The notes under the pieces: generated by a model
What the model saw: only the letters and a program-made list of their open reading frames with translations
Told to the model about the DNA's origin: nothing
Database searches by the model: none
Made by a program: the position numbers and the translations under genes
Part shown: positions 21,174-63,595 of the stretch, piece by piece
Layout: each line of letters begins with the position of its first letter
How positions within the stretch are numbered: the first letter of the stretch is position 1
From: Caulobacter sp. Root655
GTDB lineage: Bacteria > Pseudomonadota > Alphaproteobacteria > Caulobacterales > Caulobacteraceae
Direction: 5' to 3'
NCBI RefSeq assembly: GCF_001427665.1
Contig: NZ_LMHC01000027.1
Span: 110,150 to 174,149 of the forward strand
Length of the DNA stretch: 64,000 nucleotides

Positions 21174-21307
21174 TATGCATTCCCCTGATTTGCGGCAGCA
21201 GTTCTCGTTCTCGATCAGCGGAGCCGAGCGAGCCAAGACGCGGAGATTGAGGGATGCCTGCGCATCCTCCCGTGGAAGTCCGGCTTTTTTGGCATGCCGG
21301 TAATTTG

Positions 21308-21336
21308 AACCTAGGGGTGTAAGACAGCGCTGTCAA
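21308..21336 (-). promoter_or_regulatory. Promoter and LacI-type operator of the TonB receptor gene
   Basis: On the minus strand, TTGACA (21336-21331), a 17-base spacer and TAGGTT (21313-21308) make a near-consensus sigma-70 promoter. The palindrome GACAGCGCTGTC (21323-21334) covers most of the -35 element and the start of the spacer, so a bound repressor would exclude RNA polymerase. Confidence 0.75.
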
Positions 21337-21384
21337 CACGGCGACGTCTTTCCTAAACTCATTTTAATTTATGGCGCTTTGGGA

Positions 21385-25625: not shown

Positions 25626-25682
25626 GACGGGGTGTCCTCCTCGGGCCGGCCTCTGTGGACCGCTTGTCTTCAGGTGGTCTGA

Positions 25683-26606
25683 TCAGGCGTCGACGGCGGC
25701 TTGCGCCTCCGCGGTGGTCCACAGACGCGCGGCGCCTCGCACGCCCGACGAGTCGCCCCAATGGGCGGGCGCCAGCCTGGCGCGCCAGCCGTCGGAGAAC
25801 ACGTGCGGTTCGATGAGGCCCGGCAGCCGCTCATAGAGCTCGCCGACATTGGAAAGCCCGCCGCCGAACACGAAGGCGTCGGGATCGGCGATGTCGCAGA
25901 TCACCGCCAGGCCGCGAGCCAGGCGATCGAGATAACGGTCGAAGCTGATCACGGCCTCGGCCTCGCCGGCCCGGGCGGCGGCGATGATCGCCTCGCCGGT
26001 CAGCTCCTGGCCGGTGCGCGCGGCATGGTCGCGGCGCAGGCCGGTGCCGGAGATCCAGGTCTCCAGGCAGCCATGCCGGCCGCACCAGCAGGCCGGCCCC
26101 GGCGTCTCATGGGTCTTCGGCCAGGGCAGGGGCGTGTGGCCCCACTCGCCGGCCACGCCGTTGGCGCCCTCGACCAGCTTGCCGTCGACCACCAGCCCGC
26201 CGCCGCAGCCGGTGCCGATGATCACCGCGAAGGTCACCTTCAGGCCCGCCGCCGCGCCGTCGACGGCCTCGGACAGGGCCAGGCAGTTGGCGTCGTTGGC
26301 CAGCCGAACGGGACGGCCCAGGCCGGTTTCCAGGTCCTCGCGGAAGCGGCGGCCGTTCAGCCAGGTGGAGTTGGCGTTGCGCATGACGCCGGTGCGCGGC
26401 GACACCGACCCGGGCGCGCCGACCCCGATCGAACCGCGCGCGCCGGCCTGCCGTTCGACCTGGGCGACCAGGTCGCGGACCGTCGCGATGGCGGCGTCGT
26501 AGGATCCGGGATTGGGCGCGCGGACGCGGGCCAGGAAGTCGCCGTTCGGGGCCAGGGCGGCGGCCTCGATTTTCGTGCCGCCAAAATCAACGCCGACCTG
26601 AATCAA
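25683..26606 (-). CDS. ROK-family sugar kinase (fructokinase/glucokinase-like)
   Basis: A 307-aa ROK kinase. The ATP phosphate-1 loop is VGVDFGGTKIEAA near the N-terminus, the catalytic Asp lies in LANDANCLALSE, and the ROK zinc site CWCGRHGCLETW follows a conserved GEWGH. It phosphorylates hexoses released from the imported glycan; fructokinase/mannokinase-type homologues are closest in style. The start is a TTG at 26606 with GGAGG eight bases upstream; a longer frame to 26654 has no such site. It lies 57 bases upstream of the GH2 gene and is probably cotranscribed. Confidence 0.88.
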   Translation of the reverse strand: MIQVGVDFGGTKIEAAALAPNGDFLARVRAPNPGSYDAAIATVRDLVAQVERQAGARGSIGVGAPGSVSPRTGVMRNANSTWLNGRRFREDLETGLGRPVRLANDANCLALSEAVDGAAAGLKVTFAVIIGTGCGGGLVVDGKLVEGANGVAGEWGHTPLPWPKTHETPGPACWCGRHGCLETWISGTGLRRDHAARTGQELTGEAIIAAARAGEAEAVISFDRYLDRLARGLAVICDIADPDAFVFGGGLSNVGELYERLPGLIEPHVFSDGWRARLAPAHWGDSSGVRGAARLWTTAEAQAAVDA

Positions 26607-26776
26607 CCCGTCGTCCTCCGCCCTTCCGGCGCGCGTGCTGTGGCGCGCTGCCAATTTCGCTCATAGCCAGGGATGGCGAATAAAGAAAGTAATTTAAATA
26701 ATCCAATGCGCCGCCGGTCGCTATCGCCGCCCGCCAAGGCGATGCTACTAGGAACGCTCTTGCTCAGGATCACCGG

Positions 26777-28000
26777 ATGCCGCCCTTGGAAGCCTCGCGG
26801 AAGTCGAACCGGAAGCGCACCGCCGGCGCCAGCCTTTCGGGCGCCAACCTGGAGCGGGTCGGCGACCACAATCAGCGGGTCATCCTGCAGGCGATCCGGG
26901 TCGGCGGGCCGATCACCCGCGTGGCCCTGGCCCAGATCAGCGGCCTGACGCCGCCGGCCGTCGCCAACATCACCAAGCGGTTGCTCGACGACGGACTGAT
27001 CCTCGAGGCCGGACGGGTTCAGGGCGCGCGCGGCCAGCCAGCCATGAACCTGATGATCAATCCGGACGGCTGTCTGTCGATCGGGGTCAATATCGACCGC
27101 GATCACATCACCGTCGTCATGCTCGACCTGCTGGGGGCGGTGCGGGCCCGCGCCAGCCAAGAGATCGAATTCCCGCTGCCGGAAGACGTGGCCCGGTTCT
27201 GCAAGATCCAGATCCGCAAGATGCTGGTGGCATGGAAGGATCGGCCGCCTCGCCTGGCGGGCATCGGCGTGGCCCTGCCCGACGACTTGGGCCGCGTGGA
27301 CCTGCCGCATCGCCCGGAAAACTACGACGTCTGGAGTTCGGCCGACGTCAGCCAACTGCTGGCCGACGTCCTGCCGTTGCCGGTGTTTCTCGAGAATGAC
27401 GCCGCCGCCGCCGCCCTGGGCGAGCTGCAGTTCGGTCATGGCCTGCGCAAGCCCAGCTTCTTCTATGTGCTGATCTCGTCCGGTCTGGGCGGCGGCCTGG
27501 TGGTCGAGGGTAACTATTTCCGGGGCGCGCAAGGGCGCAGCGGCGAGATCGGCTTTCTGCCCGTCCGCTCGCCCAAGACCACGGCGCGGTCGTTGCAGGC
27601 GGTGGTGTCGCTGTCGGCTCTCTACGCGCATCTGGAAGCCGGCGGCGTCACGGTCGGCCGCCCCGATCAGTTGGCCGACCTGCCGCCGAAGGGCCAGGCC
27701 TTGGTCGAGGAGTGGATCGCCCTCAGCGCCAAACTGCTGGTCCAGCCGTTCGTGGGGATCAGCTGCGTGGTCAATCCCGAGGCCATCTATATCGGCGGCC
27801 GCCTGCCCACCGACCTGATCGACCGGCTGGTGACGGCGGTCAACGCCCGCCTGGCCCGGCTCGAGGACGTGCCCGCCCTGGCCCCGGTCGAGCGCGCCGC
27901 GACCTCGGCCGACGGCCCGGCGGTCGGCGCCGCCCTGCTGCCATTCATGGACCAGCTGCTGCCGTCCCGCGCCGCCCTGATGAAGACCAGCCAGGGCTGA
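26777..28000 (+). CDS. ROK-family transcriptional regulator (NagC/XylR-like)
   Basis: A 407-aa regulator. The winged helix lies at about residues 30-85 (HNQRVILQAIRVGGPITRVALAQISGL...), followed by a ROK sugar-binding fold with SSGLGGGLVVEG and a GEIG segment. The zinc-binding CxCGxxGC cluster of ROK kinases is absent (RSPKTTARSLQAVV instead), which is unusual for NagC-type regulators. Divergent from the ROK kinase-GH2-SGNH operon across a 170-base, AT-rich region (26660-26710), so it probably controls that operon in response to a sugar. Confidence 0.88.
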   Translation: MPPLEASRKSNRKRTAGASLSGANLERVGDHNQRVILQAIRVGGPITRVALAQISGLTPPAVANITKRLLDDGLILEAGRVQGARGQPAMNLMINPDGCLSIGVNIDRDHITVVMLDLLGAVRARASQEIEFPLPEDVARFCKIQIRKMLVAWKDRPPRLAGIGVALPDDLGRVDLPHRPENYDVWSSADVSQLLADVLPLPVFLENDAAAAALGELQFGHGLRKPSFFYVLISSGLGGGLVVEGNYFRGAQGRSGEIGFLPVRSPKTTARSLQAVVSLSALYAHLEAGGVTVGRPDQLADLPPKGQALVEEWIALSAKLLVQPFVGISCVVNPEAIYIGGRLPTDLIDRLVTAVNARLARLEDVPALAPVERAATSADGPAVGAALLPFMDQLLPSRAALMKTSQG

Positions 28001-28037
28001 GGGTTACCAGCCGGGACTCCATTGAAGTCCCCCTGTT

Positions 28038-28152
28038 GTTGTCATCCCGGCCAAGGGCCGCATAGCGGACCGCGGAGCCGGGACCCAGGGCAATCGCATT
28101 GCGCCGGCCCCTGGGTCCCGGCTCTCCGCTTCGCGGAGGCCGGGATGACAAC
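28038..28152. repeat. Dispersed inverted repeat, GTTGTCATCCCGGCC type
   Basis: Perfect 15-bp outer arms (28038-28052 and 28138-28152). Inner arms GAGCCGGGACCCAGGG and CCCCTGGGTCCCGGCTC form a second long stem. Same family as the elements at 12497 and 31052. It occupies the gap between the ROK regulator and the convergent amine oxidase gene. Confidence 0.8.
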
Positions 28153-28192
28153 CACAAAGGGCCAGCGGCCTAGGGGGCGCTGCTCGTCTGTA

Positions 28193-29788
28193 TCAGATCA
28201 CCCGCTGGGCCGTCACCGGCTGGGCCTTGCGGTGCTGGGCGTCGAGCATGACGATGGCGCGGTGGGCCGCGCGGATCGCGCCCTCCTGCCAGGCGCCGAC
28301 ATGACTGAGATACTCGCCGGCGAAGTGGATCGGACCATCTGGCTGACCCAGCAGGTGGTAGTCGGGCTCGTCGTCGCTGGCCCAGCCCACGCCGATGCCC
28401 AGGGTATGGGGCACCGCTGCCCACTGCACCTGCAGAGGCTTTTCCAGCAGCTGGCCACAACCGGGGTGCATGGCCTCGATGACCTTGCGGGTGTGCTCGA
28501 TCTGGGCGGGGCGCGACATCTTCATCATCTCGGCGGCGCCGGGTCCGCCGGTGTAGCAGCCCAGGATCACCCCGGTCTTCGAGTGCAGGCCATAGCTGGG
28601 GTACCAGACCATGTTGCTGGGCCCCTTCACGAACGAGAGGCCGCCATAGATCTGGTACTTGGGCCCTTCCCAGAAGCGCGGGGCCTGCCAGGCGATCTTG
28701 ATGCTGTCGCGATAGGGCGTGCGGGCGATCGCGGCCTTGTAGGCGGGGCTGAAGTCGGCGTCGATCTTGGCCAGCACCGGCAGCGGGATGGTCGAGATGC
28801 AGTAGTCGGCCTCGATCGTCATGTCGGCCTTGGCGACCATGTCGCGATAGACGACCTTGACGCCTTTTCCGGTCTTGCGGATCTGGCGCACCTCGCAGCG
28901 GCGCTTGATGATCCTGGGTCCCAGGGCCTTGGCGAAGGCATGGGGGATGGCGTCCATGCCGCCCTTGGGCTGGAACATGGTGGCCTGCATGTCGATGACC
29001 TCCTCGAACAGCACGCCGTTCCAGAGGTTCTCGTCGAGCAGCACGCTCATATCCAGCGGGTCGTGAGGCGTGCCGACCTCGCGGCCGGCGCCGGGTTCGG
29101 TTTTCAGGCCGGCCCGCTCGGAGCCCTTGTAGAAGAGGTCCGGCGACAGGTCGCCATAGGTCTTGAGGAACGCGACCATCCGCTCCTTGTCCTGCGGGGT
29201 CAGGTCCTGGTCGAGGGCGCCGGTGTTGATCGCCTTGGCCAGCAGTTCGGAGACGTGGCCGCGGGTGTCGTTGATCGCCGTGCGCATCTGGATCGGCTTG
29301 CCACCATTGGCCTCGGGATTGAGCAGCAGGGCGCTGCGGCTGGAATTGACCTCGACCTCCAGTTCGACGCCCAGCTCGCGGCAATAGCCCAGAACGATCT
29401 GGTGGTGGCTGGGCAGGCGCGCGGCGCCGGCGTTCATGTACTGGCCTTCGTCGAACTGGCAGACTTGGCGCGAGCCGTCGGTCATCTCGATCGCGTCGTC
29501 CTTGCGCACGGTCCAGACGCGCCCGCCGGTGCGGGCCCGGGCTTCGAGGATCGTGCAGTCGTAGCCGGCCTTGCCCAGTTCCCAGGCCGCCGCCATGCCC
29601 GCCACGCCGGCCCCGAGGATCACCACCTTGGCGCCCTTGCCGCCGCCGCCCTTGGCCAGGTCCGGCGGCGCGCCGGCGAACGCCGTGCTCGGCGTCAGCA
29701 GGCCCAGGGCTTGCATCGCCGTGAAGGCGGCGCTGTAGCCGCCGGCCGCGCCGATGGCGTGAATGAAATTGCGACGGCTGACCGGCAT
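28193..29788 (-). CDS. Flavin-containing amine oxidase, Tat-exported
   Basis: A 531-aa FAD amine/L-amino-acid oxidase-like protein. The start MPVSRRNFIHAIGAAGG carries a twin-arginine motif (SRRNF) and a signal region ending near AFAG-AP. The FAD motif is VVILGAGVAGMAAAWEL, followed by the amine-oxidase GG motif (ARTGGRVWT). The C-terminal flavin site is PIHFAGEYLSHVGAWQEGA. ATG 29788 is selected because it begins the Tat signal. It probably oxidises an amine or amino acid in the periplasm, yielding hydrogen peroxide. Monocistronic. Confidence 0.88.
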   Translation of the reverse strand: MPVSRRNFIHAIGAAGGYSAAFTAMQALGLLTPSTAFAGAPPDLAKGGGGKGAKVVILGAGVAGMAAAWELGKAGYDCTILEARARTGGRVWTVRKDDAIEMTDGSRQVCQFDEGQYMNAGAARLPSHHQIVLGYCRELGVELEVEVNSSRSALLLNPEANGGKPIQMRTAINDTRGHVSELLAKAINTGALDQDLTPQDKERMVAFLKTYGDLSPDLFYKGSERAGLKTEPGAGREVGTPHDPLDMSVLLDENLWNGVLFEEVIDMQATMFQPKGGMDAIPHAFAKALGPRIIKRRCEVRQIRKTGKGVKVVYRDMVAKADMTIEADYCISTIPLPVLAKIDADFSPAYKAAIARTPYRDSIKIAWQAPRFWEGPKYQIYGGLSFVKGPSNMVWYPSYGLHSKTGVILGCYTGGPGAAEMMKMSRPAQIEHTRKVIEAMHPGCGQLLEKPLQVQWAAVPHTLGIGVGWASDDEPDYHLLGQPDGPIHFAGEYLSHVGAWQEGAIRAAHRAIVMLDAQHRKAQPVTAQRVI

Positions 29789-51696: not shown

Positions 51697-52411
51697 CTCC
51701 TGGGCGGCATCTGCTTCTGCGGTCTATGCGGCGGAGCCATGACCCTGCGGACCGGCAAGAACGGGGCGTATCGCTACTACACGTGCTCGAGCAAGGCCCG
51801 GATGCGGCTGCACTGGCATCACCATCCCCATGGGCCGGCTGGACGACGCCGTAGTCGGCCATCTGGAGCGCAAGCTCCTCCAGACCGATCGGCTCTGCAT
51901 GCTGATGGGCAATGTCCTCGACCGACGCGAGGAGTGGATCGAGCGTCGCCGCACCCACGTCGGAGAGCTGCGCAAGCGATCGGCCGAAGCGGCCAACAAG
52001 TTGACCCGGCTCTACTCGGCCATCGAGGACGGGCTCGTCGGCCAGGGCGCCGAGGGCCTGAAGGATCGCATCAGGGAGTTGGAGGCGATCAAGGTGGAAG
52101 CCAAGGTCGACGCGGACCGCGCCGAGGCCGCGATCGAGAAGCTTGGGCCGATGATCACGCCCGAAAGCATCGAGCGCATGGCGACCGCCGCGCGGGACGG
52201 CCTACGGGACGCGGACGGCAAGTATCGCCGCGCGCACGTGCGGTCCGTCGCTCAGCGCGTGGAGGTGCCGTCCACGGCCGAGATCAAGATCATGGGGGGT
52301 AGAACTGAACTGCTTCGCACCATGGCCGCCTCAGCAGGCGAGCACTCCGTGCTAGTCGAAGTTCGCAGTTCTAAATCGAAGTGGCGCACCCGACACGATT
52401 CGAACGTGTGA
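51697..52411 (+). pseudogene. Frameshifted C-terminal remnant of a large serine recombinase
   Basis: Frame 1 from 51697 encodes the recombinase zinc-ribbon half (CFCGLCGGAMTLRTGK, YYTCSS). Around 51800-51810 homology moves to frame 2 and continues with GCTGITIPMGRLDDAVVGHLERKLL and a coiled coil (residues AEAANKLTRLYSAIEDGL...). One indel separates the halves. The N-terminal catalytic resolvase domain with its serine is absent. The frame runs into the tRNA-derived att sequence at 52382, so the natural C-terminus is lost as well. A dead trace of an older mobile element. Confidence 0.8.
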
Positions 52412-52426
52412 CCTTTGCCTTCGGAG
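52382..52426 (-). other. Attachment site: 3' half of a tRNA-Arg(CCG) gene
   Basis: On the minus strand the 45 bases run from the anticodon loop (CTCCGAA) through GGCAA, the variable loop, a perfect T arm (ACACG-TTCGAAT-CGTGT), the acceptor strand CGGGTGC, G and CCA. The 5' half of a tRNA is not present on either side, and the match stops within the anticodon loop. This is the signature of a tyrosine-integrase attachment site, with the intact tRNA expected at the other end of the island. The CCA end points left, so the island extends rightward from here. Confidence 0.85.
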
Positions 52427-52612
52427 CGCGCAAAAGGGCCTTTCCCAATTTCACGCCAGAGCCGCCGATTTCCCTACAGGTGGTTGATATAGCTGGTATT
52501 TTAGATATTATAACTTCCGCGATCTTACGCAGCTACACGCCACGATTTGCTTCCGGATGCTTCCGTGGGGCTTCCGGAAAATCGAAGGCAAAGGTCAGGA
52601 AGGAAGGCAAAG

Positions 52613-53914
52613 GTGAGGCTCTCCAACCGCACGATAGAGGCTCTGGAAGTCCAGGCCGCCGACTACTTCGTCTGGGACGAGGAGCTTCCCGGCTTCGGCG
52701 TCCGGGTCTACGCGTCCGGTCGCAAGGCCTATCTGGTCCAATACCGTGTCAACCGCCGCACCCGGCGCCTGACGCTCGGCATCCACGGCGCCCTAACGCC
52801 TGAGATGGCCCGCAAGGAGGCCAAGATCAGGCTGGGGGACATCGCCAAGGGCGGCGACCCGGCCGAGGAGCGCAAGACCAACCGCGAGGGCCTGACGGTG
52901 CGCGAACTGTGCGACCGCTATCTCGCCGACGCCGAGATCGGCCTGGTTCCCGGCAAGCGCCGGATGCCCAAGAAGGCTTCCACCCTGAAATCCGACCGCA
53001 GCCGCATCGACGCCCACATCGTGCCGCTGCTGGGCTCGCGGCTGGTCAAGGAAGTGACCCGGGCCGACATCCACCAGTTCATGCGAGACGTCGCCCAGGG
53101 CAAAGCACGTCGCGACCGCAAGACCAAGCCGCGCGGCCGTTCGATCGTGCGCGGCGGCCTCGGCACGGCCGGCCGCACGCTCGGGCTCCTCGGCGGTCTC
53201 TACACCTACGCCGTTCGCATCGGGATCGTGGAGACCAACCCGGTCCACGGCATCGTCAAGCCGGCGTCCAATGTGCGCCAGCGCCGGCTCACCGAAGCCG
53301 AATACCGCACCTTCGGGGAGATCCTGCGGGAAGCCGAGGCTGAGGGCCACAACGAGACTGCCCTAACGATCATCAAGGTGCTGGCGCTGACCGGCTGCCG
53401 GCGCGGCGAGATCGAGAAACTGCGATGGGAAGAGGTCGATGAGGCGGGGCGCTGCTTCCGCTTGGCCGACACCAAGGAAGGGCGCTCGATCCGCCCCATC
53501 GGGCCCGAGGTCTTCGCCCTGCTCAATCAGCGCCGGCCGGCCAAGGCCAAGGGCTACGTGTTCGAGGGCGATGTCGCCGGCAAGCCTTTCGACGGCGTGC
53601 CCAAGGTCTGGGGCAAGACCGTCCGGCTCCAGCTGGAGGATGTGACGCCCCACGCGTTGCGTCACAGCTTCGCCAGCATGGCCAACGACCTGGGGTTCAC
53701 CGAGGCGACGATCGCCGCGCTCCTGGGGCACGCGGCCGGAACCACGACCAGCCGCTACGTCCATAATCTCGACGGCGTGCTGATCGCCGCCGCCGAGAAG
53801 GTGTCGGGCCATATCGCCGGCCTGATCCGCCAGATGGACGACGAGCGGCAGGGCATGCGTGCGCTGTTCGAGCAGTGGGGCACCGTCACGGAGCAGTGGG
53901 CGGACGCGGCCTGA
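52613..53914 (+). CDS. Tyrosine-type site-specific integrase of the genomic island
   Basis: A 433-aa phage-type integrase with an N-terminal arm-binding domain (LPGFGVRVYASGRKAYLVQYR), core-binding domain (about 95-200) and catalytic domain. Catalytic residues are R263 (TGCRRGE), K288, H347-x2-R350 (HALRH), H373 (LLGHA) and Y382 (SRYVH), all intact. GTG 52613 is chosen because AGGAAGG lies 6-8 bases upstream; a longer frame from 52547 lacks this. It lies 187 bases from the tRNA-Arg att site, its presumed target. CTTCCG occurs three times at about 10-base spacing just upstream (52550-52576). Confidence 0.92.
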   Translation: MRLSNRTIEALEVQAADYFVWDEELPGFGVRVYASGRKAYLVQYRVNRRTRRLTLGIHGALTPEMARKEAKIRLGDIAKGGDPAEERKTNREGLTVRELCDRYLADAEIGLVPGKRRMPKKASTLKSDRSRIDAHIVPLLGSRLVKEVTRADIHQFMRDVAQGKARRDRKTKPRGRSIVRGGLGTAGRTLGLLGGLYTYAVRIGIVETNPVHGIVKPASNVRQRRLTEAEYRTFGEILREAEAEGHNETALTIIKVLALTGCRRGEIEKLRWEEVDEAGRCFRLADTKEGRSIRPIGPEVFALLNQRRPAKAKGYVFEGDVAGKPFDGVPKVWGKTVRLQLEDVTPHALRHSFASMANDLGFTEATIAALLGHAAGTTTSRYVHNLDGVLIAAAEKVSGHIAGLIRQMDDERQGMRALFEQWGTVTEQWADAA

Positions 53915-54396: not shown

Positions 54397-55845
54397 TTAT
54401 GCCCACGCCGGCACGTAGCCGGACTTCGGTGCGTGCGGGTCAGCCAGACGTATTTGCTGCGCGTCCGACGCGTCTCGAATTATGCGCGAAACCGCCGCAG
54501 CGTTGGTACTGCCCAATCCGAAGCGATCGCGCAAACTCGCATTGGTCATCTTCTGTCCCGCAAGCCAGCGTAGCGCCGCGTGTTGCGCGCATGCTCGTAC
54601 TCGTTCCGCCGGCGTCATGGATGCAAAACTGCGGGGGCCGTACAGCACGACGCGCACACTGTCCCCGTCCACGCGGAAATCGGGTGGCGGGAGCTGGAAT
54701 AGCTCCACGGACTTGAGCGCCTTATCGACGCCGCTGCCTTGCTCCTCGCAGATACCCATTCGCCGCATCAAGGCGGCAAGGCTTTCATTTCGTGACCTGG
54801 GCGGCATGTCGACAAACCTGGCCGGCTCCACCAGCGGCTTGCCCGGGTTCGTGATCTCCACCCGATCCGTGAAGATCTCAACCATCGGGCCGGCGCCCGT
54901 AACGGTCAGATCCTGGTGGATCAGAGCGTTGGCGACCAGTTCGCGAATGGCGATGTCGGGGTAGAGCGACCGCTCCTGGCGCAGCGCCTTCCCGATCTCC
55001 TCGTTACGAGGGAGCAGGCCGTCGATGTGGTCGATGACCGCCGTGAACCCCGCAGCATACCCCCGGGTCTCCTCGTATCTTCGAAGCGTCTCCGTCCGAT
55101 CGTTCCCCACATACTGGATCACCCTGACCGCTTTGCGTTCCAGGCCTTTGAAGAGAGAAAGCCGTTTGGCAAAGAGGATCGCGCCAAGATTGGTGACGTC
55201 CCATCGCTCCGCCGTCTCGCGGCGGATCAACCGATCCGCTTCAAGGCGCTCGAAAATTCCGGCCCGGTTATCCGGCAGCCTTTGCTTGGAGAGATCGAAG
55301 TAGGAGGCGTAATCGAGGTTCGTCAGGACGTCGTCGCTGGTTATGAAACTGAGCGCGACCCCCTGCTCCCAAGCGAACGGTCGCAGCTTCGCCCAAAGCG
55401 CGGCTTCGACCTCCTTGTGGTCGAGCAGCTTCGGCGTGGCGCTGCCGAGGCGAATATAGGCGACGCGATCGAAGGCGACGGGGCTGCTGGTAGCTGCTGG
55501 GATTTCGAGGACGATCAGCCGCCCGTCCGGATGCACCAGTTCCTGGAACTGAAGGTTCGGACAGGGGTCCAGCTTTTGGGCCAGCCACATCTGGAGACCC
55601 TGGTTTCCCACGGTCTCCACGTCTGGCTTGAAGGTGGTGCCCACCACTTCCCGGCTACCGTCTTCGATGCCCCAGATCATGTAGGCGGTTTCGCGGTCCG
55701 CGAGTCGGGCGCCATTTGCTAGACCGGAGACCGTAAGGGCGATCCGTTCTGGATTCGTGTTATTGGCCTTGAACTCAAACCAGTTCGCCTCAGCCTTATG
55801 GCGCCGAAGATCTTCAACGATGGCGAAGAGGCGGGCGGGGTTCAA
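54397..55845 (-). CDS. AlbA_2 (Schlafen-like) domain protein with GHKL-type ATPase domain
   Basis: A 482-aa protein. The N-terminal AlbA_2/Schlafen-AAA_4 domain shows EANWFEFKANN and the YIRLGSATPKL strand; a winged-helix region follows. The C-terminal part has RELVANALIHQDL and the VEITNPGKPLV segment of the RecG-C-terminal-like HATPase_c_4 domain. Proteins of this build are predicted nucleic-acid-linked regulators and are common on islands. The TTG at 55845 is favoured by GAGG six bases upstream; the frame runs on to 55956. Role unknown; possibly island regulation or defence. Confidence 0.8.
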   Translation of the reverse strand: MNPARLFAIVEDLRRHKAEANWFEFKANNTNPERIALTVSGLANGARLADRETAYMIWGIEDGSREVVGTTFKPDVETVGNQGLQMWLAQKLDPCPNLQFQELVHPDGRLIVLEIPAATSSPVAFDRVAYIRLGSATPKLLDHKEVEAALWAKLRPFAWEQGVALSFITSDDVLTNLDYASYFDLSKQRLPDNRAGIFERLEADRLIRRETAERWDVTNLGAILFAKRLSLFKGLERKAVRVIQYVGNDRTETLRRYEETRGYAAGFTAVIDHIDGLLPRNEEIGKALRQERSLYPDIAIRELVANALIHQDLTVTGAGPMVEIFTDRVEITNPGKPLVEPARFVDMPPRSRNESLAALMRRMGICEEQGSGVDKALKSVELFQLPPPDFRVDGDSVRVVLYGPRSFASMTPAERVRACAQHAALRWLAGQKMTNASLRDRFGLGSTNAAAVSRIIRDASDAQQIRLADPHAPKSGYVPAWA

Positions 55846-55962
55846 TCTGGACCTCTGGCTGGCACGGGTAGCACGGGCTCCCAAGTTCTGGTGCCTTAAC
55901 ATAGGGACCCACCACATTGGAGAGCACCACTCCGTCAAAGTCACGAGCACGGGCAACGGCGC

Positions 55963-57454: not shown

Positions 57455-58087
57455 CTATGCAGCTGAAGCGAGTTCTTGCTCGCCCATCATCTCCTCCCAC
57501 TGTCGTAATTCTCGCCTCACGTCTTGAAGATCTGCCAGACGCGCTCTTAACCACTTCAACATCTGTGGGGCCGTGCATGAGGTCGTGCCCTGCCCACTAC
57601 AGGCGGCAGCGACATTAGCGGCCTTCTGGGCAGAAATGATAATTGCGGGATCGAGCGGAGCCGTGGGGAAAAGGGCGATCAAGCTTTGATGTACAATTTG
57701 GCTCGCGTGGATAGTATCCTGTTGCAAACTACACATATGTTGCACGTTAGGGCTTTCGTTAAGGCGATATTGCACAAGTGCTTCTTCAGTTTCGATCGCA
57801 ATTTCCACGCGGATTACAAGCGCTTCACAAGCCTTTAGGTACGCGCGGGCGCGCCTAGATTTCTCCACGCGCAGCGCCTGACGTTCGCGCCGTTCCAAAT
57901 CTCTCGCGGCTTCCTTTGCCTTGGCCTCAGCGAAGTTGGCGCGTCTGCTCTCATACCAAATTGCGAAGAAGCCCAGCCCAAGCGCTGCACTCGAAAGCAA
58001 TCCTTGATTGGCTTCAGCCCATGGCCAGGCACCATTGGCGTCGCAGATCCGCTCCCAGATCCATTTTAAGAACAGCGACAGATGCAT
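57455..58087 (-). CDS. Membrane-anchored coiled-coil protein
   Basis: A 210-aa protein. A hydrophobic segment at about 30-45 (LLSSAALGLGFFAIWY) is followed by a charged helix rich in Ala, Glu and Arg (47-85), predicted coiled coil. The C-terminal half is helical with three cysteines. No family recognised. It starts 63 bases after the AAA ATPase stop on the same strand with no obvious promoter between, so it may be the fourth component of the PIN/AAA operon. Confidence 0.6.
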   Translation of the reverse strand: MHLSLFLKWIWERICDANGAWPWAEANQGLLSSAALGLGFFAIWYESRRANFAEAKAKEAARDLERRERQALRVEKSRRARAYLKACEALVIRVEIAIETEEALVQYRLNESPNVQHMCSLQQDTIHASQIVHQSLIALFPTAPLDPAIIISAQKAANVAAACSGQGTTSCTAPQMLKWLRARLADLQDVRRELRQWEEMMGEQELASAA

Positions 58088-58150
58088 GGCGCGTGACTAC
58101 ATCCGATGTCGCTGTTGCTTCCAGCAAGCGAAAGGCGAGGCTAAATAATT

Positions 58151-59356
58151 CTAGCTTTTCGCCTCATGCTCACTTTTCTTATTTTCCACTATCCGATGAA
58201 GTTCTTCAAGCAATCGCGCTTGATTGCGCTCATCAGAAGATGGCGCTCCAGTCTTTCCAAAGAAAGCAGCCTTTAGGTCATCTTCTGTAATTAATGCGCG
58301 CGCCCGATCAAGAGAGATCTGAGTGGAAGTTTCCTGCTTAAATGCTCCAAGCTCGTGCTCAATATATACATCTGCGAATTTGCGAGCCTCATCGAGATCC
58401 TTCACTTGATGCAGCGCGGACCTCGCTTCAGCCTCAAATCCCAATCTCTGGAAAAGCGGATAGTTATAGTTGCGGAGATTATCGGCGCCGCGAGCTGTAG
58501 AGCCCGAGACGATCATTAGAGAATATCCGGAGTTCTGGCCGAATGCTTCGTCAAACAAATATCGAACGTCTTGCAAAAATGACTGCACGCGAGCAACGGG
58601 AACGCCGCTGGAAAAAATCGCCTCAACCTCGTCTAAGCAAATCATGACGCCGTTGAACAATTTTTGCTGGCGGGCGAGCGCGAACAGCTCGGTCATTACG
58701 CGGATCATTAGAGAGCCGCTAGAGAGGCGACCTGAAACTCGGAGATAGCGCCGATCAGTTGAGGTAAGCGTTTCTCCAACTATCCAGCGACGGCAGACAT
58801 CTAGTAAATTGGCGAAGTCGTAGCGCTGGCTCTGATCTTGGGGGACGTAACCGTCTTTCCCAGCCTCCACAAGTTTTAGAAGCGCATTCCGAAGGTCGAT
58901 CTGGCGAATAGGTCCGAGTTCACCGTTCTCGATGCGATTTACGATAGCAGACAAAAGATCGTGCTCTCCAACAAGCTTTACGTGCTCATCAGCAGCTCGG
59001 AAAATCTCTTTAACCAACACTATCGCGGAGCCAGTCCCAGCGAGGAACTCCACCGTCACGATTGGCAGGTTATTTTGTTTAACTTCGTATTGGCAATGGC
59101 GCTGGAAGTGCGACTTTCCCTGGCCCGTTCCGCCTAAGACGGCGAGGCTACGGCGCGCAATCTCCGGGCCGGCAATAGCGGTAACGCCAGCGGCGAATTT
59201 TTTGATCGCCTCTTCCTGATTGTAGATGACCTCGGGATAGATCGTTCGAGCGGGCGGGAATGGATTTCTCCGCATTCCATAGCTCGCAAGAAATTCGTTT
59301 TTCTGGGGCTCGCCGCTGACGACGCCCTTCAGCAGGTTGCCTAGCGTAGAAGTCAT
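58151..59356 (-). CDS. AAA ATPase (ExeA/BrxD-like P-loop protein)
   Basis: A 401-aa P-loop ATPase. An N-terminal segment YGMRRNPFPPARTIYPEVIYN resembles the NPF start of ExeA-like AAA proteins. Walker A is GGTGQGKS (75-82). Walker B is MICLDEVE with D242-E243. A sensor-like segment SLMIVSGST lies near 279-287. It overlaps the PIN gene by four bases (ATGA), so the two are translationally coupled and probably act together, with ATP hydrolysis gating or loading the nuclease. Resemblance to the BREX ATPase BrxD is only in general fold; no other BREX genes are present. Confidence 0.75.
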   Translation of the reverse strand: MTSTLGNLLKGVVSGEPQKNEFLASYGMRRNPFPPARTIYPEVIYNQEEAIKKFAAGVTAIAGPEIARRSLAVLGGTGQGKSHFQRHCQYEVKQNNLPIVTVEFLAGTGSAIVLVKEIFRAADEHVKLVGEHDLLSAIVNRIENGELGPIRQIDLRNALLKLVEAGKDGYVPQDQSQRYDFANLLDVCRRWIVGETLTSTDRRYLRVSGRLSSGSLMIRVMTELFALARQQKLFNGVMICLDEVEAIFSSGVPVARVQSFLQDVRYLFDEAFGQNSGYSLMIVSGSTARGADNLRNYNYPLFQRLGFEAEARSALHQVKDLDEARKFADVYIEHELGAFKQETSTQISLDRARALITEDDLKAAFFGKTGAPSSDERNQARLLEELHRIVENKKSEHEAKS

Positions 59357-61413
59357 CGCGCGGGCCCTTCTACGGTCAAGACTGGGCGCTCTCCAAGGTA
59401 CAGACGATCAATCACTACCGGTTCTGTCCGAACTTTGTCCAATGGGCCAGTGATCGCTTCGTCGCGCGAAACCGGCTTGCCGCCCGCGGCCGGCTGGAAC
59501 GTGTAGTCTGGCAACGATCTGGCCGCTACAAACTTTTCGAGCCGCTGCTTGGCCGCCCACGGGCTCATACGTGACAGCTCGCAAAAGCGAGGTAGGAGGT
59601 CGATGACCTTCGCGATCCCGACGGACGAAACTTCGACAAAAGCCTGCTCGAACGCATCCGTGGCGTCTCGATCTGTCGGCCGGTTCGAGCCATCAAAGAT
59701 CGCGTCGCCGTTCGACCAGGCTTGGCCCAGCAAAATATGGAAACGCGGGAGGCGCTCGCTTTCTTCGAGCCCGGCGCGACCAACGATCTCGTGGACGAGC
59801 GGGACAATTTCTTGTCGCGCCACCGTTCCTCGCTCCTTCAAGACCGTGAGGAACGACCTGTAGGCCTCCCATCGTTCCAGGATCGAGCTAACCGCGTCGA
59901 GATCATCCGTCACCAGCGCCGTCTCAACGGTGTCGACGTCTTTGGTGGGGCGAAACATCGTGCCAGACTGATCCAATAGGCCAATGCGCCGCAAAATTTC
60001 GACCGGCCGTTTCGCCTTGTCCAATGAGATCGAGTCTTGATCGAGGGCGGCGACTATCTCCTCAACCGTGCCACCACCGATGCGGCGAGCAGCGGCCAGC
60101 ATGCGCAACGTTTGAGGCAGCGAGGCCCTCGGAATCGGTGTCGCAATTGGAGCCGACGCCTTCGGCGCGGCGGATCGTGAGCGCTTCCCGTCGGCCGCAG
60201 GATTCGCGCGACCGATGGTAGGCGTCGCGCTAACAACGGCCTCAACCACCGGCACCGAACCGCCCCTTGCGTTCGCTTCGCCTTCAGCCGCAACAGAGGG
60301 CACATTGTCCGGTATCGTCGCGACTACTTCGTGAACGACAGGTTCAAACGAGCAAGTGAGAGTTTCGCCCGCCCATTCTGTTGGCGTCTTTCCAGGCCAG
60401 TAGCATTCCAATGTGGCCACAGGGTTCTTCGCAATCGAAATTCTGACCGTGCCGAACGCGTGTGTAAGCTCCCACGCCAAAGCGCGTAGTGGCGCCCCCA
60501 CGAAACCGCGTGCTAGTGCGTCATATCGCAGACATTCAACCGGTGCATCGCCCAGAACCAGGCTCGGGACAAACAGAGTTTCGATGCCCTCGGCCGAAAG
60601 GACGCGAGCAATATTTACGTCAGAGGTGACTACTCGCCGTGCCGTCCGCGAACGCATCGACCGCAGCACGTTGTGGATCGCCTCAATTATCAGTCGATCT
60701 TCAAGTACATCACTTTGGTCCGGATCACTGCCCGAAGAAGAAGCCATTTTTTGGTAGCGAAGCAGCGACGGGTCAATTTCGACGACCTGGCAGCGTCCTT
60801 TGTTTCGCTCAAGAAGCCCTAAGGCACCGTTTACCAATCCACGTGATCTAAGAACTTTACTTATATTGGTGATATTGAATTTATTAACTAACGATTTGAT
60901 CGTTGCGTCACGTGCCTGAATGGTCGTGAGTGAGGCAACAACAGGCATAAGCCAAATAGATGGCCGATGCAGAACCCTGAGAAGCCAATGCACTGAACCA
61001 TTGTGCAGAGCATTTGTATCAGGGACGATTACGACACCATCCTGCTCGTCCAATTTTATAAGTTGCTCAAGAAGTTCGAGCGGAACCTCCGGCTTCAATA
61101 GGCCAACTCGGCCTAAAACTAGAGCCAACGTGTCTTCAATCGTTCTGACGCGACGGGCTGCGTCTTCAGCTTCGGTTTTTCCCGTGCCTTTCGGCACGCC
61201 TGAAATCAGCTTTGAAAACGTATAGAACTGTTCCGACGAACTGTCTTCAGTCGGAATGTTCGCCGCATGTACTTGGAGTAATCCAAGTTGCACCCACTCG
61301 CTTGGCTGGAGGTGAGTTGAATCATTATAGGCGACGGAATACGATCCGGCCGGCAGGTTTTGCAGGTGCCGGCCTTTACCGCACTGATCAAGAGTTAGGC
61401 GAACTCGAGTCAT
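59353..61413 (-). CDS. Large PIN-domain protein (putative nuclease)
   Basis: A 686-aa protein. Residues about 125-290 form a PIN-like nuclease domain: strand VVIVPDTNAL (D132), DVLEDRLIIEAI (acidic residues 235-239), and VVTSDVNIARVL (D265) followed by GIETLFVPS. The N-terminal 120 residues are unassigned. A Ser/Ala/Pro linker (about 375-430) leads to a C-terminal helical region with winged-helix-like repeats (RMLAAARRIGGGTVEEIVAALD...). Much longer than a VapC toxin (about 130 aa). Coupled by ATGA overlaps to both the gene upstream and the AAA gene downstream. Confidence 0.7.
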   Translation of the reverse strand: MTRVRLTLDQCGKGRHLQNLPAGSYSVAYNDSTHLQPSEWVQLGLLQVHAANIPTEDSSSEQFYTFSKLISGVPKGTGKTEAEDAARRVRTIEDTLALVLGRVGLLKPEVPLELLEQLIKLDEQDGVVIVPDTNALHNGSVHWLLRVLHRPSIWLMPVVASLTTIQARDATIKSLVNKFNITNISKVLRSRGLVNGALGLLERNKGRCQVVEIDPSLLRYQKMASSSGSDPDQSDVLEDRLIIEAIHNVLRSMRSRTARRVVTSDVNIARVLSAEGIETLFVPSLVLGDAPVECLRYDALARGFVGAPLRALAWELTHAFGTVRISIAKNPVATLECYWPGKTPTEWAGETLTCSFEPVVHEVVATIPDNVPSVAAEGEANARGGSVPVVEAVVSATPTIGRANPAADGKRSRSAAPKASAPIATPIPRASLPQTLRMLAAARRIGGGTVEEIVAALDQDSISLDKAKRPVEILRRIGLLDQSGTMFRPTKDVDTVETALVTDDLDAVSSILERWEAYRSFLTVLKERGTVARQEIVPLVHEIVGRAGLEESERLPRFHILLGQAWSNGDAIFDGSNRPTDRDATDAFEQAFVEVSSVGIAKVIDLLPRFCELSRMSPWAAKQRLEKFVAARSLPDYTFQPAAGGKPVSRDEAITGPLDKVRTEPVVIDRLYLGERPVLTVEGPAR

Positions 61414-61793
61414 TCGACTCTGATCCAGATGCTGCTGTCCAACTGCAATTGCTCAATGTGGTCGATAACGGAACCACAAACCATTAACGCCGCCTTTGGC
61501 TCCGCAATTTCAATCGTCGCAATCCAGGGCTTGCCAACGCCGGGCTGAGGAGCACTAACGGCGCTGAACACGCCATATTCGTTTGCGTTCGCAGCCCCGC
61601 CTACGAGCGACTTGAAGTCTTCTAGCCGATACCATTCACCCGGATCCACGAGTACGCCAGCGGCATGCAATGCGGCTGCGGAGAGATCGTCCACGTTGGC
61701 GGCCCACAACTCGCGCCCCTTTGGCTCCAGTAGCCCGTCACCGTCGGGTTGCCCTTGCGGGTCAAAAATCCCCTCGCGCACTTTTATGAGCAT
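61410..61793 (-). CDS. Small first protein of the PIN/AAA operon
   Basis: A 127-aa acidic protein (MLIKVREGIFDPQGQPDGDGLLEPKG...), possibly a beta-rich adaptor, with VSAPQPGVGKPWIATIEIAEPKAALMVCG near the C-terminus. No family recognised. Its stop overlaps the PIN start (ATGA), the second such overlap in this operon. It could be an antitoxin-like or sensor component; this is guesswork from position. Confidence 0.65.
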   Translation of the reverse strand: MLIKVREGIFDPQGQPDGDGLLEPKGRELWAANVDDLSAAALHAAGVLVDPGEWYRLEDFKSLVGGAANANEYGVFSAVSAPQPGVGKPWIATIEIAEPKAALMVCGSVIDHIEQLQLDSSIWIRVE

Positions 61794-62232
61794 CGTTCTA
61801 CCAAGTGTATTCCCCCCATGGCCTTACGTAAGCCACGCCGCATCTTTGCACACCGTGCAAGCTTCACAACCTTTAGGTTCTTTGCGGCGTGAGCAAGATC
61901 GTCAAGCGATGGTGAGCGCTAAGCGCGTCGCCCATCCATGCTGACCAAGGTGTAGGAGAGTTTTTAGGTGGAATGCTCCTGAGGGATCGACGGCCAGATA
62001 AAAGCACCGCCGTCGGTCTACGTCCGAGGCGTTGCGGGGGTTGGGCTGGCGCGTGGCTGAACCGACGGCGCTCATTTTGCGCGTCTGGCGCTTTTTCCCC
62101 GATGATCAAGGTTTTCAAGACCCGCCGCGCCGTCGGTGTGCCCTGGCGTATTTTGGGGGGCCGGCCGGCGTGGAAGGGCCAGCCGTTCGCCAGGCCCTCA
62201 AGGGCGGCTTCGCCGTCGCCTGCGGCGATGGC
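61794..62232. other. Non-coding region upstream of the PIN/AAA operon
   Basis: A 439-base gap between two minus-strand operons. It must hold the PIN/AAA operon promoter, on its left side; an AT-richer part near 61800-61870 (GTGTATTCCC, TTTAGGTTCTTTG) is the likely place, but no consensus promoter stands out. Short frames (for example one starting MIKVFKTRRAVG at 62103) have poor composition and no ribosome-binding site. Confidence 0.4.
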
Positions 62233-62625
62233 CTAGCGGCCCCCCTTGACCGCCTGTCGCCCGGCCGGCTGTGGCTCGGCGTGCGGCTTAAGCCGCGAGA
62301 GGTCACCAAGTGACCTACGGCTGTCCGGTTGAACTTGGCGCGCCAGATCAATGGTCCGGGTGATCATGCCGAGCGCCGCCGCGAGGTGCGCCTCGACGGC
62401 GGCGGGTTCGATCTTCAGGCGGCGTGCGATGTCGCTGTAAGTCAGGCCCCTGAAGCGGCTCAGCACGAAGACGTCACGTTCCCTCTCGGGTAGACGCAGG
62501 ATCGCATATCGGCACAGGTCAATCTCGTCATCAGGGTCGAAGCTGGGTCCAGCCCACAGAGACGGATGACGAAGGCGCCAGAGTTGCGCCGGCTCCAACG
62601 GCCAGAGATTCAAAGTCCCGTACAT
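62233..62625 (-). CDS. Sigma-70 region 4-like protein
   Basis: A 130-aa protein with a sigma region 4 helix-turn-helix: CRYAILRLPERERDVFVLSRFRGLTYSDIARRLKIEPAAVEAHLAAALGMI. Region 2 is missing, so it is not a complete sigma factor; it may be an orphan DNA-binding or anti-sigma-like protein. ATG 62625 has GGGAGG eight bases upstream, better than ATG 62664. The gene overlaps the HEPN-like gene by 16 bases. The last 30 residues are basic and disordered. Confidence 0.72.
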   Translation of the reverse strand: MYGTLNLWPLEPAQLWRLRHPSLWAGPSFDPDDEIDLCRYAILRLPERERDVFVLSRFRGLTYSDIARRLKIEPAAVEAHLAAALGMITRTIDLARQVQPDSRRSLGDLSRLKPHAEPQPAGRQAVKGGR

Positions 62626-63101
62626 CCGCCATGCCTCCCGGTCCGCAAGGCTGCGTCGCCCCATCCCTGATCGCCAGTCGCGCGGGTGACGGCAGCGATT
62701 AGCGCTCGAACCGTTTCGCAGGCTTCGGGCCAGGATGCCGACGCTATCGCATCCGGGGGCATCACCGCGATGGCGTGGACCTGATAGTAAGGGCTGAGAA
62801 GCGCAGCAAGCGCTGGAAGCTCAGCGGGCGCGCCGTCAAAACCGGCTCGCCGGGCGCACCTCAGCGCCCTGGCCAGATCGTGGCGGATGTGAACCCGGTT
62901 CCAGTCGTCGCTGATCCCGCGATGGAGCAGATAGGCCTTGAGCGCCAGTTCGATCGCTATCGCCAGGAAGTAGCGGGTCGCCTCTGGGTGACGGTCCAGC
63001 GCCGCCACGGCCGCCTCGTGGAAGCCCGCAGCATTCCGGCGGAAGGTGTGCGCCAACGGGCGATCGGCGCCGTCGCGCCGCCTGGGAGCGCGGCGGATCA
63101 T
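62610..63101 (-). CDS. HEPN-like domain protein
   Basis: A 163-aa mostly helical protein. ATRYFLAIAIELALKAYLLHRG and IRHDLARALRCARRAGF follow the pattern of HEPN-type helical bundles (hydrophobic helix with E-L-A-L-K-A-Y, then H-D-L). A clear RxxxxH RNase motif is uncertain; RNAAGFH near the N-terminus is one candidate. It starts in an ATGA overlap with the preceding gene and overlaps the sigma-like gene. HEPN proteins are frequent in toxin-antitoxin and defence loci, but no nucleotidyltransferase partner is seen. Confidence 0.55.
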   Translation of the reverse strand: MIRRAPRRRDGADRPLAHTFRRNAAGFHEAAVAALDRHPEATRYFLAIAIELALKAYLLHRGISDDWNRVHIRHDLARALRCARRAGFDGAPAELPALAALLSPYYQVHAIAVMPPDAIASASWPEACETVRALIAAVTRATGDQGWGDAALRTGRHGGCTGL

Positions 63102-63595
63102 AGCCGACCGGAAAGAACCGCAAGGTCACGAACGGCTCGGACGATCAGTCCATGGGCCTCCGGGTGATCCTCCTCGAAGATCAGGCCGCCCGCTACCGAC
63201 AGGTTGGCGACAACCGCCTCGACACTCTTAGCCGGAGCCGGCCGCATCGCCTTGAGAAGGGTTTGGTTCTCTTCCTCCAGCACATCCAACCGCGCGTCGA
63301 TCTCGGCGAGTCTGGCGCCCTCGGGGATGGCGGCCCGTTCATCGCCTGACAGGCGATACCACCTGCGCTTTTTGATCAGCCAACCTTCAAGGTTGCCCCA
63401 CTCGGTTTGAAGGCGCTTGCGCTCGTCATCCACGGCGAGCCAACGCTGACAAATGGCAAGGGCGGGATCACCCTGCGCGCTGGCCGACGCGAGACCGGCG
63501 ACCAACGGCGTCGCAGACCCGCCGGCCAGCACGGTACGCCTTGACGGTTCAAACAGGCGCGCAGGCGCGCTTCCCGCCTTTCGACGTGAGCTCAT
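63098..63595 (-). CDS. Tat-signal-like, coiled-coil protein of unknown function
   Basis: A 165-aa protein. The N-terminus (EPSRRTVLAGGSATPLVAGLASASA) resembles a twin-arginine signal with an AxA cleavage site, and the rest is a charged helical region (DERKRLQTEWGNLEGWLIKKRRWYRLSGDER; LDVLEEENQTLLKAM). Similar unnamed proteins are common in alphaproteobacteria. First gene of a three-gene overlapping operon, divergent from the XRE regulator. Confidence 0.65.
   Translation of the reverse strand: MSSRRKAGSAPARLFEPSRRTVLAGGSATPLVAGLASASAQGDPALAICQRWLAVDDERKRLQTEWGNLEGWLIKKRRWYRLSGDERAAIPEGARLAEIDARLDVLEEENQTLLKAMRPAPAKSVEAVVANLSVAGGLIFEEDHPEAHGLIVRAVRDLAVLSGRL

Follow-up and report, generated by a model that had tools for sequence, protein, structure and literature searches.

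A set of three overlapping genes, here called the trio, is supported as a conserved unit on mobile DNA by comparison of five loci, one of them in the window (the whole stretch of 64,000 nt that was analysed). The trio is a good candidate for a new defence system, a role that its genomic context suggests. The explanation we favour, at slightly better than even chances, is a horizontally transferred, probable anti-invader module in which an ATPase of the BrxD/SngB type would gate a putative PIN-like nuclease, with the first gene encoding a regulator.

Conservation and occurrence of the trio

The trio as a whole spans positions 61793-58151 on the minus strand (Table 1). The original prediction described three minus-strand reading frames for proteins of 127, 686 and 401 aa joined by two ATGA overlaps; the coordinates and frames are confirmed, and both junctions read ATGA. 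These frames are genes and not chance openings, since the two larger proteins have relatives with 38-46% identity along their length in four other genomes. Whether the three genes stay together elsewhere had been raised with that prediction, and they do: the trio is intact and in the same gene order in all 5 loci found (the window and four other genomes), and all 10 junctions overlap by 4 bases, reading either ATGA or GTGA. Divergence of the three proteins runs in parallel, with r of 0.96-0.99 over 10 genome pairs.

Table 1. Positions in the window of the trio, its subfeatures and neighbouring elements
Feature	Position	Strand	Description
Gene 1	61410-61793	minus	127 aa; open frame
Gene 2	59353-61413	minus	686 aa; open frame
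Gene 3	58151-59356	minus	401 aa; open frame
Overlap of gene 1 stop and gene 2 start	61410-61413	minus	ATGA
Overlap of gene 2 stop and gene 3 start	59353-59356	minus	ATGA
PIN-like region of gene 2	60496-61152	minus	residues 88-306; 49-50% identity to homologues (alignment)
Inverted repeat	61846-61860	minus	TTGCAC-GGT-GTGCAA, perfect 6+6; begins 67 bases ahead of gene 1
210-aa gene	57455-58087	minus	within the originally predicted span, outside the conserved unit; no Pfam domain above cut-off
Island left end	52382-52426		45-base exact copy of tRNA-Arg 3′ end (attachment-site repeat)
Tyrosine integrase of island	52547-53914	plus	PF00589 (1.9e-16), PF13356 (1.2e-14)
Schlafen AlbA_2 and HATPase_c_4 protein	54397-55956	minus	PF04326 (1.4e-12), PF13749 (1.3e-23)

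The occurrence of the trio is rare and patchy, the five loci being a lower bound. Searches with gene 2 added one new genome (G550) among 394, beyond the window's own or the seed genomes, and no new genome among sets of 61, 385, 33 and 5. The scan of genome contigs rested on just two short peptide patterns, both of which are missing from the G550 protein. The viral contigs scanned held no relative, the annotated phages held none of gene 2 or gene 3, and a DNA search of E. coli genomes found none.

The composition of the trio is atypical, with a G+C content of 52-58% versus 69.5% for bases 1-50000 of the window. The inverted repeat ahead of gene 1 is a possible operator, and it was not seen upstream of the trio in the other four loci. 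On the downstream side, the original prediction extended the unit to the 210-aa gene, which was called a membrane/coiled-coil gene. The gap of 63 bases that precedes it is as described, but the term 'membrane' has a weak basis (the most hydrophobic 19-residue stretch reaches a Kyte-Doolittle mean of only 1.52), and membership in the unit was not borne out, as a tblastn search of the DNA flanking the trio at the other four loci gave no counterpart (best E 2.6).

Features of the three proteins

Gene 3 encodes the best conserved protein of the trio. Its sequence places this ATPase in the BrxC/BrxD family, with SngB of Shango and BrxD of BREX type 2 as distant relatives. Residues 187-306 match PF10923 (BrxC/BrxD) with 27.4 bits against a gathering cut-off of 22.2. 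Profile-profile comparison with three SngB-type ATPases gave E-values of 8.5e-8 in local mode (176 columns) and 1.8e-9 in global mode (373 columns), while the best of 20 column-shuffled profiles, a control in local mode, reached 0.13. The intact Walker A and B motifs of the original prediction are present as GGTGQGKS (GxTGxGK) and MICLDE (LDE), and all 5 homologues keep G75, T77, G78, G80, K81, D242 and E243. For the window proteins PADLOC models returned only weak Walker-motif matches to HerA (E 0.005 and 0.015), with no MADS model matched by genes 1-3; across the five trio ATPases, the BrxD model matched one (E 1.1e-4), the mad8 model matched two weakly (best E 0.02) and the SngB model matched none at E up to 1.

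Searches with the ATPase also gave four weak matches at the order level and one at the phylum level (E 1e-5 to 7.5e-4). As further trios these were rejected, as none of the four examined (all but G969) is a trio. Three of the loci (L029, L031 and L032) encode a large protein, an ATPase and a helicase consecutively, and in L030 a helicase that by eye looks the same stands behind the ATPase match. PADLOC, in a run that left out L032, gave the name SngB to the ATPases of L029 and L031, and named the two remaining L031 proteins SngA and SngC.

In the protein encoded by gene 2, a PIN-like region at about residues 105-300 is followed by a variable linker, then by two probable winged helices (about residues 428-576) and a conserved tail; its homologues share 38-40% identity over the whole protein. 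The acidic residues singled out in the original prediction (D132, 235-239 and D265) hold up well: all 5 homologues have D132, E238, D239 and D265 unchanged, with D or E at residue 235. We take D132, E238, D239 and D265 to be the PIN acidic positions at strand 1, the helix and strand 4. For the fourth PIN acid no counterpart is certain; all five proteins have D or E at residue 169. The predicted winged-helix-like tail appears at the level of the model, in which structural alignment places two tandem winged helices at about 428-503 and 504-576.

Gene 2 likely has a PIN fold, a putative assignment made with low-confidence models and no profile match. The AlphaFold models have a pLDDT of 47 and 55. 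The PIN-like region is modelled, at low confidence, as an alpha/beta domain with structural matches to several Rossmann-like folds; these include SiRe_0806 and the PIN domain 3i8o from M. jannaschii, and other Rossmann-like folds reach an equal or higher Z. PIN does not head the VIA-align list, which was not counted as excluding it, and in a Foldseek comparison with viral proteins one protein with a PIN name ranked 11th (E 0.11). Pfam searches at E up to 10 found no PIN family in 4 full-length and 5 domain sequences, the superfamily being too diverse for this to exclude a PIN fold. Searches of PDB sequences, NCBIfam and PHROGs gave nothing significant for the assignment, and a search among relatives for PIN_12 and PIN_4 members, as material for better comparison profiles, gave a single match below threshold in 41 genomes and no match in 26. 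One could instead read gene 2 as another Rossmann-like enzyme fold, such as an adenylating HUP domain, and the trio as a modification system. We give this very little credence: the model (pLDDT 55) is weak and its Z lies near the level of unrelated models, the SGGxDS motif of adenylating HUP-domain enzymes is missing in 5 of 5 gene 2 proteins, and the PIN-like acidic residues are invariant in all five.

Gene 1 encodes the least conserved protein of the trio, possibly an inhibitor, adaptor or sensor. All four other loci have a counterpart at the corresponding position, with 22-31% identity to the window protein. Three of these were found directly by tblastn with the window protein (E 2e-9 to 9e-5), and that of L002 was linked through the L003 protein (53% identity, E 4e-22). 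No match to gene 1 was found in Pfam, PADLOC, NCBIfam or PHROGs.

The position and variability of gene 1 bring to mind a toxin-antitoxin system, in which gene 1 would be the antitoxin, gene 2 an oversized PIN-type RNase toxin and gene 3 a factor that disassembles or controls the complex, the whole stabilising a mobile element instead of acting against phages. In VapBC systems, a small gene overlaps the PIN gene, and the trio fits this order and overlap, with its small first gene joined by 4 bases to a PIN-like gene. The placement of 4 of 5 loci on islands, beside an integrase or on a plasmid is in keeping with such a role. However, the four VapC-type proteins of the window's own genome that were compared measure 129-151 aa, about a fifth of the gene 2 protein, which carries probable winged helices and has an ATPase as partner. 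Neither gene 1 nor the PIN-like region has a profile relation to five VapC proteins (for the PIN-like region the probability was 0.1%, equal to the reversed control), and gene 1 belongs to none of the families searched. Moreover, the best conserved gene of the trio is the third, an ATPase of the BrxD/SngB group, and we know of no such ATPase as part of vapBC. We therefore consider a toxin-antitoxin system unlikely.

Proposed mechanism and comparison with known systems

From these features we infer a nuclease activity of gene 2, its gating by the ATPase and a regulatory role of gene 1. In the anti-invader module that we favour, either DNA or a trigger related to the invader would be the place where the gene 3 ATPase assembles, and its ATP hydrolysis would load or switch on gene 2. 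The gene 2 protein would grip nucleic acid via its two winged helices, and its PIN-like, metal-dependent centre (D132, E238/D239, D265) would do the cutting. Gene 1, whose translation comes just before that of gene 2 across the overlap, would most likely serve as an adaptor or inhibitor that restrains the nuclease until the trigger arrives.

No entry describing the trio was found in PADLOC, Pfam or the literature. The statement in the original prediction that the set is not recognised as a named system stands insofar as no PADLOC system model describes it. It needs qualification in another respect: the trio is not wholly outside known kinds, because its ATPase falls in the Pfam BrxC/BrxD family and aligns lengthwise with SngB-type ATPases. 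Shango, described as an anti-phage system (PMC10250203), shares with the trio a three-gene operon that includes a PF10923-type ATPase. The partners differ, as Shango has a TerB protein (SngA) and a DEAD/DEAH helicase (SngC), whereas the trio has a PIN-like/winged-helix protein and a small protein. Indeed, window genes 1 and 2 gave no PADLOC or Pfam match to a TerB-like SngA, gene 2 compared by profile with three SngA-position proteins reached a probability of 1.0%, and neither the trio nor 10 island proteins scanned include a DEAD/DEAH helicase of the SngC kind.

A second likeness is to BREX, also described as an anti-phage system, in whose type 2 BrxD is an ATPase of the ORC/Cdc6 type that stands alone and is in tight linkage with an enzyme acting on nucleic acids (PMC12839542). 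The pairing of BrxD, likewise of PF10923, with BrxHI resembles the arrangement of the trio, but the trio lacks PglX, PglZ, BrxC, PglW and BrxHI, and its ATPase is partnered with a putative nuclease. The scan of 10 island proteins of the window showed no PglX methyltransferase, PglZ or BrxHI; no PglZ is listed near the trio in the other loci examined, and the methyltransferases close to it match best to type I restriction (L003) and HmaB (L002).

With PARIS and other ATPase-nuclease pairs the trio shares the coupling of an ATPase to a nuclease, here a putative one, and a location close to restriction systems. PARIS differs in combining an OLD-type ABC ATPase with TOPRIM, neither of which was found in Pfam and PADLOC scans of the three window proteins, whereas the ATPase of the trio is of the BrxC/BrxD family. 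OLD-ABC ATPases with PIN RNases are also on record (PMC12839542). PIN nucleases in phage defence outside classical toxin-antitoxin pairs are exemplified by DS-3 and DS-5 from DefensePredictor; DS-3 is a single gene and DS-5 joins a PIN protein to a DUF5830/AcrIF4-like protein, with no ATPase partner mentioned in the passages that describe them (PMC13092281), in contrast to the trio.

The trio can be seen as a compact relative of SngB and BrxD systems with a putative nuclease, not a helicase, as the partner of the ATPase. Tentatively, and a little short of an even chance, it may represent an undescribed anti-invader class, in which a BrxD/SngB-type ATPase, whose partner elsewhere is a helicase, has become joined to a tandem-winged-helix PIN-like nuclease and a small regulator; loading driven by ATP onto the DNA or RNA of an invader would then fire the nuclease directly. 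If true, PIN-winged-helix proteins would join the bacterial nucleases under ATPase control. The role of SngB is, to our knowledge, unsettled. That of BrxD is described as uncharacterised, with helicase loading proposed (PMC12839542), and the trio offers a small system for asking directly how such an ATPase acts on its partner.

Mobile context and defence-type neighbours

In the window, the trio sits on an 11.8-kb island whose ends are a perfect 45-base direct repeat of the end of tRNA-Arg; the second copy, at 64144-64188, lies inside tRNA-Arg(CCG) just beyond the window end. These repeats and the integrase bear out the integrative island of the original prediction. Two loci are tRNA-bounded islands with an integrase (repeats of 45 and 24 bases), and at a third the integrase lies 98 bases behind the trio, with NikA-like and relaxase genes upstream.

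Some regulators of transposition are AAA+ ATPases, and the trio could accordingly be imagined as an accessory of transposition or integration, with the ATPase as a TnsC/TniB-like target selector and gene 2 as a nuclease with which the mobile element processes DNA. In 3 of 5 loci an integrase is present on the island or adjoins the trio, which agrees with this idea. However, the integrase architectures of those three differ (Arm-DNA-bind_3, DUF6538 and Int_N), no integrase was seen at the remaining two, no transposase gene is constant across the loci, and the ATPase matches BrxC/BrxD, all of which makes such a function highly improbable.

Another defence-type gene lies near the trio in 3 of 5 loci. 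On the island of the window this is a Schlafen-type protein gene, outside the trio and 2.2 kb away from it. In S. terangae (L003) a type I restriction operon lies 499 bases from the trio, and in E. canadensis (L002) a DUF499/DUF1156/SNF2 set lies 264 bases from it. This closeness would suit a back-up effector triggered by the blocking of a neighbouring restriction system, as PARIS is by anti-restriction proteins, and ATPase-nuclease pairs, PIN RNases and Schlafen-kinase proteins are described as companions of BREX-type loci (PMC12839542). The same source ranks PIN RNases among the less common companions (PMC12839542), and a restriction-type system adjoins the trio in only 2 of 5 loci: none was found in the scans of 10 island proteins of the window and of neighbours in N. 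huautlense, and none was seen by eye around G550. A back-up effector is, in our estimation, a shade less probable even than a toxin-antitoxin system. The SNF2 gene of E. canadensis belongs to the adjacent DUF499/DUF1156 set, which lies on the opposite strand and is convergent with the trio; its protein gives its best PADLOC score with the BrxHI/BrxHII model, followed by HmaA.

A three-gene unit shared by five loci

Re-reading the sequence confirmed the sizes of the three minus-strand genes of the trio and both of the ATGA junctions that the original prediction had placed between them, the ATG of the downstream gene overlapping the TGA of the preceding one. Gene 1 is small, gene 2 encodes a large protein with predicted PIN-like and winged-helix domains, and gene 3 encodes an ATPase. 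The further gene expected 63 bases past the trio lies at exactly that distance and encodes 210 aa; a tblastn search of the regions flanking the other four trios detected no counterpart of it (best E 2.6). The G+C content of the trio is 52-58%, compared with 69.5% in window bases 1-50000, and its third-position G+C is 55-64%, whereas two long window genes outside it reach 92-94%. Because both values fall so far below their surroundings, the trio is probably foreign to its host genome.

Conservation of the trio as a neighbourhood had been proposed as a check, and the order of small gene, large gene and ATPase gene is identical in all four other genomes in which it was found. The two larger genes were located by tblastn on plasmid pT173c of Ensifer canadensis, the trios of Sinorhizobium terangae and Neorhizobium huautlense were added by scanning genomes with an alignment of two sequences, and a search of 394 genomes from one family added that of a further genome, G550. 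All ten trio junctions over the five loci are 4-base overlaps (six ATGA, four GTGA). The GTGA overlaps imply GTG starts for three ATPase genes and one gene 2; the G550 ATPase gene has an alternative ATG start three bases further on. Identity between the window proteins and the other four is 22-31% for gene 1, 38-40% for gene 2 and 43-46% for gene 3, and across ten genome pairs the identities of the three proteins correlate at 0.96-0.99, as is expected of genes travelling together. The window gene 1 protein matches three of its four counterparts (tblastn, E 2e-9 to 9e-5), while the Ensifer counterpart is linked via the S. terangae relative and not by the window protein directly.

The trio is rare and patchy in the genomes sampled. 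Gene 2 occurs in 1 of 61 relatives and in 1 of 385 genomes sampled from the class, in each case the window's own genome. Around two trio-bearing genomes, G444 and G445, it was found in 1 of 33 genomes of the former's genus (G444) and 2 of 394 sampled from the latter's family (G445 and G550); the genus of G550 gave 1 of 5, G550 itself. Full-length gene 3 is present, besides partial matches, in 1 of 397 genomes sampled from G445's order (G445) and 1 of 398 from the window's phylum (its own).

Relationship of the ATPase to BrxD and Shango

Gene 3 is the only trio protein with a curated family, PF10923 (BrxC/BrxD; 27.4 bits, cut-off 22.2). Its Walker residues K81, D242 and E243 (window numbering) are invariant, together with many further residues. 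Weak, partial genome matches led to operons of a different kind, with a large protein, an ATPase and a helicase in a row (L029, L031 and L032; two genomes from G445's order, one from the window's phylum). PADLOC, run on the three L031 genes and the L029 ATPase only, named the former SngA, SngB and SngC and the latter SngB, as in Shango. The five trio ATPases align with the three Shango-like ATPases at E 8.5e-8 over 176 columns (hhalign), and in global mode at E 1.8e-9 over 373 columns, Walker A included; neither alignment is deep (Neff about 1.7), and the best of 20 column shuffles in local mode reached E 0.13. Alignment with the Ensifer DUF499 protein is confined to the Walker A stretch. PADLOC called none of the five trio ATPases SngB; one matches BrxD (E 1.1e-4) and two match mad8 (best E 0.02).

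In PMC12839542, BrxD is presented as a stand-alone ATPase of the ORC/Cdc6 type that is tightly linked to a helicase, which it may load. Shango combines an ATPase, a helicase and a TerB protein, with 10-100-fold plating changes for many, not all, phages (PMC10250203). Compared with these systems, the trio has a nuclease-like protein with predicted DNA-binding-type domains in the helicase's place. The simplest model, in which the genetic frame is observed and we infer the biochemistry, is an ATPase-gated nuclease: the ATPase would sense or assemble on invader nucleic acid and then load or release the putative nuclease, with gene 1 acting as a possible adaptor or brake.

In keeping with the original view that the set is not a named system, the three window proteins gave no PADLOC match beyond weak Walker-motif hits. 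No description of the trio was found in the titles, abstracts and passages of open-licence papers on PIN with BrxD, PIN-ATPase defence operons, the family names, DUF499, BrxD/TerB, Shango or the Ensifer protein accessions. As PADLOC and this literature describe no such set, we regard the trio as a new variation on the ATPase-nuclease theme, a module built around a BrxD/SngB-type ATPase, with a putative defence role.

The island and the neighbourhoods of the other trios

A tRNA-Arg(CCG) gene lies just beyond the window end, and an exact copy of the 45 bases at its 3' end lies 11.8 kb to the left. Such a repeat with an integrase gene nearby, as here, typically marks an integrative element, which the segment carrying the trio thus appears to be, in agreement with its predicted placement on an island by an integrase. 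Besides the trio, the island holds the integrase, a Schlafen-type protein and the 210-aa gene, as well as three short genes that overlap one another and a small protein that matches helix-turn-helix families weakly. BREX-type systems are reported to be often accompanied by Schlafen proteins that carry a minimal kinase (PMC12839542).

Among the overlapping genes, the 163-aa product has a sub-threshold HEPN match and the 143-aa product a sigma-70 region 4 match. Relatives of the former occur in 16 of 61 genus genomes, its own counted, with six copies in one, which by sequence makes it a member of a multi-copy family. A 193-aa frame without a Pfam match runs into the left attachment repeat; we take its translation to resemble a serine recombinase end, and the frame may be left over from an insertion that came before.

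Positions of the trio and associated features
Feature	Sequence	Position	Strand	Basis or remark
193-aa frame	window	51830-52411		
45-base tRNA-Arg(CCG) repeat	window	52382-52426		exact repeat
Tyrosine integrase gene	window	starts 52547		family match
Schlafen AlbA_2 + minimal HATPase_c_4 protein	window	54397-55956		Pfam; same island as trio
Trio, three genes of 127, 686 and 401 aa	window	61793 to 58151	minus	open frames
Inverted repeat	window	61846-61860		perfect
Three small overlapping genes, 165, 163 and 143 aa	window	62233-63595		island
DUF499/DUF1156/SNF2 set	pT173c (L002)	18396-28652		

In S. terangae, type I modification, specificity and restriction genes diverge from the trio, 499 bases away. 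An integrase gene there adjoins tRNA-Thr, whose 3' end (24 bases) is repeated 20.5 kb away, and the trio and restriction genes both lie between the two repeat copies. The N. huautlense trio has an integrase gene 98 bases behind it; on its upstream side, a single unassigned gene separates it from NikA-like and relaxase genes, and a HipA-type gene is more distant. On the Ensifer plasmid, a DUF499/DUF1156/SNF2 set lies 264 bases from the trio on the opposite strand. In PADLOC, its helicase scores best with a BrxHI/BrxHII model, HmaA next, its methyltransferase with HmaB, and its ATPase matches HmaC weakly (E 1.3e-4); similar sets are termed BREX-related or Hma systems (PMC12839542). Two extra genes (166 and 329 aa) between its core genes have no PADLOC match. 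The G550 trio sits between what we take to be glyA and nrdR, and no integrase or defence gene was seen in its surroundings. Overall, an integrase is on the island or adjoins the trio at three of the five loci, and another defence-type gene is close by at three of five.

Ahead of gene 1 in the window, at 67 bases, is the inverted repeat TTGCAC-GGT-GTGCAA. It was not seen in the upstream regions of the other four trios, and that of N. huautlense carries its own, different inverted repeat.
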